A DNA stretch of 48,553 bases, from the NCBI RefSeq assembly GCF_027000115.1, contig NZ_JALTON010000038.1:1-48553 (forward strand), written 5' to 3'. Positions 30,375 through 32,156 of this stretch are shown in pieces. The position numbers were made by a program, and so were the translations under genes. The notes under the pieces were generated by a model. That model was not told the DNA's origin and searched no databases. It saw only the letters and a list, made by a program, of their open reading frames with translations. The stretch's first letter is position 1. Each line of letters begins with the position of its first letter. The stretch is from Thiohalobacter sp. (GTDB lineage: Bacteria > Pseudomonadota > Gammaproteobacteria > Thiohalobacterales > Thiohalobacteraceae).

Positions 30375-30465
30375 GTAGGATGGGCAAAGGAGCGCAGCGA
30401 CGTGCCCATCAGCATCCCCTGACCATCATGATGGGCACGGCCCTTCGGGCCTTTGCCCATCCTAC
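30375..30465. repeat. GTAGGATGGGCAAAGG palindromic repeat
   Basis: Perfect 16-bp inverted ends: GTAGGATGGGCAAAGG (30375-30390) and its complement at 30450-30465. A perfect inner pair is CGTGCCCATCA (30401-30411) and TGATGGGCACG (30429-30439). This is another common proteobacterial intergenic repeat type. No transposase is nearby. Confidence 0.9.
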
Positions 30466-30672: not shown

Positions 30673-31125
30673 TCACTCCAGCTCGCGCAAGCGATCGAAG
30701 ATGGCCTCGAAATCACGCGCCCACTGTTCGAACACGGGTACCAGGTCCTCGGCCGGATAGAAGCGCTCGAACTCGCGCGGATCGGCCGCGACCAGCAGGG
30801 TCTCGTCGGCCTCGGCGAAGATGGCGACCTTGAGCGGCAGATAGGGGATCAGCTCCGGGTGCCCGGCCGACAGCCGGCGCAACTGTTCCGGCTTGCCGAA
30901 GAACACCACCCGATACTTGTCGGTCTGGTAGCCGAAGGTTGTCAGGCCGACGTCGACCCGCTGCACCCGCGACAACTGATAGCCCCGTTCCCTGATCGCC
31001 TCCTGCAGGGCCAGCATGGTCTCCGCGAAAGGCTGCGGCGAACGCGTCATCATCAGCTCGCTGGCAGCGAGCGCACCCGCGGCCAGCATCAGGATGCCGG
31101 CGAGGATCAGGCGCAACAGATTCAC
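30673..31125 (-). CDS. Exported DUF302 protein
   Basis: A 150-residue protein with an N-terminal signal or anchor helix (LLRLILAGILMLAAGALAAS) and a DUF302-like domain (RSPQPFAETMLALQEAIRERGYQLSRVQRVDVGLT, then YRVVFFGKPEQLRRLSAGHPELIPYLPLKVAIFAE). DUF302 proteins are small alpha/beta folds found in sulfur- and metal-active bacteria; the function is unknown. It starts with GTG overlapping the stop of the cytochrome-DUF302 gene by four bases (GTGA), so the two are made together. A longer upstream frame runs through the cytochrome gene in the wrong register and is not used. Confidence 0.78.
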   Translation of the reverse strand: MNLLRLILAGILMLAAGALAASELMMTRSPQPFAETMLALQEAIRERGYQLSRVQRVDVGLTTFGYQTDKYRVVFFGKPEQLRRLSAGHPELIPYLPLKVAIFAEADETLLVAADPREFERFYPAEDLVPVFEQWARDFEAIFDRLRELE

Positions 31126-32156
31126 AGTGTCGCCTCCTCCAGGATGTCGACATACACCTGGTGCATCTGCTCGCAGGCCTCGTCGAGGTTGTGGTTGTTG
31201 AACAGCCGGCTCAGGCGCTTGGGATTGATGGACATCACCTTCACCACGCCCTTGTCCTCCACCACCGTCACCCGGCAGGGCAGGAACAGCCCCACCCGGG
31301 GGTCCAGCTTCATGGCATCGTAGAGGAAATTGAAGTTGCAGAAGTAGACGATGACCTGCTTCGGGTTCTGCTCGCCCTCCGGGAACAGCCCATGCTCGAG
31401 CAACTGGGTGCGGATGATGCGGAAGTTCTTGCCGATCACCGCCCGCTTCACCGCCTCCACCGTCTCCTCGACGCTGTAGGGCGATTCGTAGACCATGACC
31501 GCCGGTTCCTCCCGAGCCGGCCCGGCCGCACGGGGTGCCTGCTCGAAGCTGCGCACGAAGGCGACCAGATCGTCGATGTCCCGCTCGCTCAGGCCCCGAT
31601 CCAGGAAGGACGCCATGGGCGTGCCCTCGCGGCCCTTCATCAAGGTGGCCTTGATCATGGCGTCGCTGGCAGCCTTGAGGAAGCCGGGATTGTTCAGCGC
31701 CGGAGCGATGATGGGCAGGTCGCGGGGCCGGGAGAAGGTGACCCCGGTGCCCTTGCCGCCCTCGCCGTTGGCCCCGTGGCAGGCCGCGCAGTGCTGCGCG
31801 AACAGCGCACGGCCGTGCTCGACGTCGCCGCGGATGCGCTGCTGCGAGAACCGGGGGCGCTCGACCTTCGCAAAGCCGCGGACATGTTCCACGATGGCGC
31901 GCACTTCCTCGTCGCTCAGCCGGGTGAAGGCCGGCATCACCCGGCCGGGTCGGCCGTGGCGGATGGTCTGTTCGAGATAGTGATCGGAAACGCTCTCCTG
32001 AAAGGCGGGCAGGGCCAGCGGCACGCCGACGCCGCCGTTGCCGGCACGACCATGGCAGACGGCGCAGTTGCGGGCATAGAGCTGCGCACCGTTCGGGGCC
32101 GCGACGACCCCGCCGGTCAGCACCATGAGCAACGCAAACAGAAATAGTCTGGGCAT
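31122..32156 (-). CDS. Di-haem cytochrome c fused to a DUF302 domain
   Basis: A 344-residue periplasmic protein with a signal peptide (residues 1-20). The first cytochrome c domain has haem site CAVCH (Cys31, Cys34, His35) and likely Met74 as the second ligand (GRVMPAF). The second has CAACH (Cys123, Cys126, His127) and likely Met181 (GTPMASF). From about residue 215 a DUF302 domain follows (SVEETVEAVKRAVIGKNFRII, then QVIVYFCNFNFLYDAMKLDPRVGLFLPCRVTVVE). Its two exported Cys residues (FCNF and LPCR) could form a redox pair. Electron transfer coupled to whatever DUF302 binds is a reasonable inference. The neighbour downstream is a second DUF302 protein. Confidence 0.9.
   Translation of the reverse strand: MPRLFLFALLMVLTGGVVAAPNGAQLYARNCAVCHGRAGNGGVGVPLALPAFQESVSDHYLEQTIRHGRPGRVMPAFTRLSDEEVRAIVEHVRGFAKVERPRFSQQRIRGDVEHGRALFAQHCAACHGANGEGGKGTGVTFSRPRDLPIIAPALNNPGFLKAASDAMIKATLMKGREGTPMASFLDRGLSERDIDDLVAFVRSFEQAPRAAGPAREEPAVMVYESPYSVEETVEAVKRAVIGKNFRIIRTQLLEHGLFPEGEQNPKQVIVYFCNFNFLYDAMKLDPRVGLFLPCRVTVVEDKGVVKVMSINPKRLSRLFNNHNLDEACEQMHQVYVDILEEATL

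Follow-up and report, generated by a model that had tools for sequence, protein, structure and literature searches.

A di-haem cytochrome c fused to DUF302 and its cysteine-free DUF302 partner form a conserved gene pair associated with sulfur oxidation

We analyzed a 48,553-nucleotide stretch of DNA from Thiohalobacter sp. (contig NZ_JALTON010000038.1; hereafter the window) and identified a two-gene module in which a di-haem cytochrome c fused to a DUF302 domain (subunit A) is obligately paired with a second, Cys-free DUF302 protein (subunit B). Both proteins have export-type N-termini, the DUF302 domain of A has conserved Cys residues, and pairs of the same two DUF302 types also exist free of cytochrome. 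Across Gammaproteobacteria the fused module is statistically associated with sulfur oxidation. DUF302 is widespread and its structures have been solved, but its function is not established in the available literature; the module turns this into a testable hypothesis for the whole family, as it connects the DUF302 Cys site with haems and an asymmetric partner in Sox- and Dsr-containing organisms.

The A gene (31,122–32,156, 344 aa; identified by Pfam and homologues) and the B gene (30,673–31,125, 150 aa; identified by Pfam and a structural model) lie on the reverse strand, as do all genes and gene parts of the window for which coordinates are given below. They are coupled by a four-base stop/start overlap, GTGA, at 31,122–31,125, with GTG as the start codon of B. 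Subunit A begins with a Sec-type signal sequence (aa 1–20, 32,097–32,156), read from the sequence, with VVAA at its end and a helix at residues 2–13 in the model. The haem-binding motif CAVCH (aa 31–35, 32,052–32,066) is invariant in all complete sequences and the second motif, CAACH (aa 123–127, 31,776–31,790), is likewise kept in all of them. Met74 for haem 1 and Met181 for haem 2 are conserved in all complete fused sequences and are the likely axial ligands, which would give His/Met ligation.

By its two CxxCH motifs and its Pfam scores, A qualifies as a class I c-type cytochrome (PF13442 in two stretches, E 3.9e-28, 98 bits; PF00034, 82 bits). This part resembles CcoP and bc1-type di-haem subunits. 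Assignment of A as the CcoP of a cbb3 oxidase was rejected at 62.2 bits against an equivalog cut-off of 179.95 (TIGR00782), and assignment as a SoxA/TsdA cytochrome at 14.5 bits against a cut-off of 27 (PF21342). The DUF302 domain occupies approximately aa 217–344 (31,125–31,508), with a PF03625 match at aa 261–312 (E 7.5e-12, 45.4 bits, cut-off 23), and its model matches the DUF302 structures 1Q9U (Foldseek TMt 0.85), 1J3M (TT1751) and 7TJ1, whose fold is also matched by the model of B. The 7TJ1 entry, from Brucella, is titled 'putative fluoride ion transporter CrcB' and has the DUF302 fold, so that its title is probably a misannotation.

Three Cys are conserved in the DUF302 domain of A. In the model, Cys273 (YFCNF; 31,338–31,340) ends one beta strand, Cys294 (LPCR; 31,275–31,277) starts the next and Cys328 (EACEQM; 31,173–31,175) lies in the last, C-terminal helix; they are present in 66, 62 and 60 of 68 distinct fused proteins, respectively. 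The first-pass annotation of this locus, made from the sequence, had pointed out the first two (as FCNF and LPCR) and overlooked the third, and the conservation among fused members that it proposed to check is borne out by these counts for both of the residues it named. The clade with soxYZ upstream of the module has Phe at position 294 and has gained a Cys at 316, and a few fused members are without C328.

C273 and C294 conform to the CN...LPC motif of ordinary DUF302 members. Of 30 regular-expression pickups of ordinary DUF302 proteins, 4 were wrong frames and were discarded; each of the 26 clearly recovered sequences has both motif Cys (GACNP...LLPCNVVV). The CN...PC form is also found in one exported-type DUF302 protein whose gene lies between soxA and soxB. 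FCN...LPC is thus not specific to the fusion. C328, on the other hand, is present in unfused A subunits and absent from ordinary DUF302 proteins. The comparison of fused with single members, also suggested at first pass, therefore separates two classes of Cys: C273/C294 belong to the general DUF302 motif and C328 is a mark specific to the A subunit. It is possible that C273 and C294 act as a redox pair.

Subunit B is a weaker match to PF03625 than A (E 1.9e-5, 24.9 bits, cut-off 23), and its model (pLDDT 91) aligns with 1q9u at a VIA Z of 18.0 over 127 residues, the first match outside DUF302 having a Z of 8.7. Weak structural matches of B to AMPK KA1-like and Bet v1-like folds (Z <9) were discounted as evidence. 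B has a signal-like N-terminus and no Cys at all, with Gly/Ala and Leu at the positions of the CN...LPC motif, confirming the earlier impression that the stand-alone copy lacks the Cys and that the two copies differ.

To describe the spread of the module we used an evenly drawn sample of 369 Gammaproteobacteria genomes. The full-length fused protein is present in 61 of them, from 33 GTDB families, so the fusion is not restricted to the source of the window. Of the two outcomes named at first pass as refuting its proposal, this excludes one, and the other, Cys not conserved among fused members, was not obtained either. A profile search for B in the same 369 genomes matched exactly those 61, and B was never found apart from the fusion in this sample. 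The B gene adjoins the fused gene at all directly read loci (19/19 and 30/30), with the four-base overlap at 28 of 30 loci checked. Such recurrence of the same pair and of its overlap indicates that the locus arrangement is not due to chance. The remaining first-pass claims, that two haem domains and DUF302 form one protein, that its gene overlaps a stand-alone DUF302 gene by four bases, and that the product is exported, redox-linked and made with a partner, agree with the CAVCH, CAACH and Pfam matches, the GTGA overlap, the signal-type N-termini and the identical 61-genome set of the two genes.

Beyond the class sample, we scanned 84,980 species genomes by a search that detects only close relatives; it returned about 20 loci of the fused form, every one in Gamma- or Betaproteobacteria, and Thiohalobacter thiocyanaticus is among the closest (72% identity). 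We found no viral contigs encoding a relative, and the plasmid matches were to CcoP only.

The two DUF302 types also occur as adjacent pairs in which A has no cytochrome. Such unfused pairs are found in several of the 61 carriers (G001, G043, G045, G048, G184, G186, G270 and G326, the last more fused-like), mostly with the four-base overlap. Their first member shares the three Cys of the fused domain and resembles it at the C-terminal end; the second, often lipoprotein-like, has other residues in place of these Cys. We therefore consider the conserved unit to be the A/B DUF302 pair and the cytochrome an addition to A.

Several further observations concern the wider family. At the unfused pairs of loci L177–L183 (for example L177:3436-4370) A is apparently membrane-anchored or exported; two of these pairs (L178 and L182) lie beside mla lipid-transport genes, and one unfused pair is next to a thioredoxin-domain gene. 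A genome without the cytochrome fusion encodes a Cys-free protein of 285 aa with two DUF302 domains in tandem (L184:193-1050). DUF302 was found in 66 of 114 class genomes and in 3 of 14 control genomes, some of them without a sulfur-oxidizing lifestyle. Several sulfur-oxidizing Gammaproteobacteria have four to nine DUF302 genes apiece, and the genome of the window has one additional, ordinary DUF302 gene besides the A/B pair.

At the genome level, soxB (matches above cut-off) is present in 55 of 61 carriers and in 93 of 308 other genomes (90% versus 30%, P 7e-19) and dsrA in 47 of 61 versus 65 of 308 (77% versus 21%, P 1e-16), the counts and P values being inflated by shared ancestry, as carriers are related organisms. 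A pattern complementary to SoxCD appears as a weak trend for soxC (3/33 versus 12/47, P 0.08). The genome of the window has soxB, soxY and dsrA and lacks soxC. Where bacteria have Sox proteins and in most cases lack SoxCD, the module could fill a gap in electron transfer.

Two carriers without soxB and dsrA were also found to lack all three Cys, which prompted a search of their GTDB family. In one genus, g190, soxB, dsrA and soxY are absent from all eight genomes, and the fused gene is kept in seven, in every one of which C273 is replaced by Gly, C294 by Asn or Ser, and C328 is lost. In the sister genus, soxB occurs in 3/3 genomes, and the one complete fused protein has all three Cys. The Cys-free proteins form a single nested clade (support 0.999), indicating that the loss of the Cys is derived and occurred once.

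Only five of the 58 positions that are at least 95% conserved elsewhere are lost in every g190 protein (S142, N244, C273, F275 and C294); the other 53 remain and both haem motifs are intact. The Cys-free genes are under purifying selection (dN/dS mostly 0.03–0.27), suggesting that part of the function is independent of the Cys. The joint loss of the Cys and of sox/dsr, a single event, is suggestive of a tie between the DUF302 Cys site and sulfur chemistry rather than proof of it. Together with the co-occurrence of soxB and dsrA, this lineage backs the hint at sulfur oxidation given by the first-pass annotation, and it supplies natural Cys-free controls. Flavocytochrome c (PF09242) was considered as a discriminator and proved uninformative: it is absent in g190, but also in the window's genome and in most of the set.

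The Sox system offers a parallel to the division of labor in this pair. There, a cytochrome, SoxXA, acts with a two-subunit carrier, SoxYZ, and the reactive Cys belongs to just one of the two carrier subunits. The likeness to A/B, Cys in one subunit only plus a cytochrome, is one of analogy and not of homology. Neither A nor B has a Pfam match to SoxY (PF13501) or SoxZ (PF08770) at E values up to 1; unlike SoxXA, the haem domains of A keep Met, not Cys, as the likely ligand; and soxX, soxA and soxB are not constant neighbors of the module. TsdA is, like A, a periplasmic di-haem cytochrome of sulfur oxidizers, and it is reported to work through a Cys that ligates its active-site haem (PMC4423706). 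A instead has Met in both haem domains and its Cys in DUF302, and its similarity to the TsdA fold is weak (Foldseek E 0.02). Relative to CcoP, whose structures and PF13442 are matched by its cytochrome part, A differs by having DUF302.

Within DUF302 itself (PF03625), A keeps the two-Cys motif of the family. The structures known for the family are of single-domain proteins that have no cytochrome, whereas the module consists of two exported proteins, of which A adds a third Cys and two haems and B has no Cys. Links of the family to sulfur metabolism have been reported before: an uncharacterized DUF302 gene is flanked by soxA and soxB in Acidithiobacillia and other groups, for which a role with trithionate has only been proposed (PMC5037610, PMC5248467), Sulfitobacter sox clusters include a DUF302 gene (PMC11034169), and a DUF302 relative is found in the Synechocystis sqr1 operon (PMC5061849). 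The sox-cluster proteins resemble A in being exported-type, in having the CN...PC motif and in occurring in sulfur oxidizers; unlike the module they stand alone inside the sox operon, with no cytochrome and no Cys-free partner described. The DUF302 literature we read, which lay outside most subscription journals, describes no cytochrome fusion and no Cys-free partner.

We give roughly even chances to A/B being a periplasmic sulfur-linked electron-transfer module. In the mechanism we infer, A and B would be exported as one unit and associate physically as a DUF302 heterodimer, A supplying the Cys site and the di-haem cytochrome c and B acting as a Cys-free structural or gating partner. The Cys site of A (C273 and C294, perhaps C328) would bind or oxidize a reduced sulfur group in the periplasm, with a thiol, a persulfide, or a sulfur species from Sox or another periplasmic enzyme as the candidate, and the two haems would then relay electrons to a respiratory or photosynthetic chain. 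A bolder version, which we put forward tentatively and consider on balance doubtful, sees in DUF302 A/B a new device for handling sulfur in the periplasm and a counterpart of SoxYZ plus SoxXA. Its Cys site would load or oxidize sulfur while the haems take the electrons; a lineage abandoning sulfur oxidation would have kept the scaffold and haems and dropped the Cys.

Alternatively, the fused protein may be a generic periplasmic electron carrier, for example to a cbb3 oxidase, inherited in sulfur-oxidizing lineages, with the DUF302 pair serving in docking or stabilization only and the link to sulfur reflecting ancestry. The resemblance of the cytochrome part to CcoP and bc1 subunits, the housekeeping surroundings at many loci, the continued selection on the Cys-free version and the relatedness of the carriers all fit such a carrier. 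It accounts poorly for a partner that never leaves the fusion in the sample, for Cys that almost every member retains and whose loss coincides with the absence of Sox and Dsr, and for A/B pairs that exist without a cytochrome, and we regard it as rather improbable.

That the DUF302 Cys handle thiol-disulfides or a metal such as copper in the assembly of periplasmic redox enzymes, the cytochrome re-oxidizing the Cys site, seems to us unlikely. This reading draws on the two-Cys motif being common to ordinary DUF302 proteins, including those of genomes without a sulfur-oxidizing lifestyle, on the mla and thioredoxin-domain neighbors of some unfused pairs, and on a microoxically induced Bradyrhizobium DUF302 gene next to ccoG (PMC6515984). 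Yet the fused form strongly tracks sox and dsr, a pattern not required of a general assembly factor, and assembly genes are not constant neighbors of the pair.

Several points weigh against the sulfur-linked reading: the relatedness of the carriers, the continued selection on the Cys-free g190 genes, the Phe at position 294 in one clade, the few members lacking C328 and the variable surroundings of the module. Among the 60 loci read we found no constant third gene beside the pair, and no sulfur gene or assembly gene was a constant neighbor among the loci read. A frequent slot has lysA/cyaY, sometimes with a carboxylesterase, on one side and cyaA on the other, and in other genomes the pair lies elsewhere. 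In one clade soxYZ lies a short way upstream, separated from the module by cyaY. One genome with soxYZ near the module (G317) has short soxB matches, N-terminal and of 67 residues each, on contigs C300 and C87, which could reflect a broken, divergent or mis-assembled soxB.

In the window, a co-directional carboxylesterase gene (PF02230; 32,220–32,888) lies 63 bp upstream of the fused gene. It is a variable component, and the carboxylesterase cluster recurs at 12 of the 60 loci. Between 30,200 and 32,950 no sigma-70-like promoter was found and terminator-like sites occur at a frequency near chance level. A strong 37-nt inverted repeat with 86% complementarity lies at 30,375–30,465, between the B gene and cyaA, and resembles an extragenic palindromic element.
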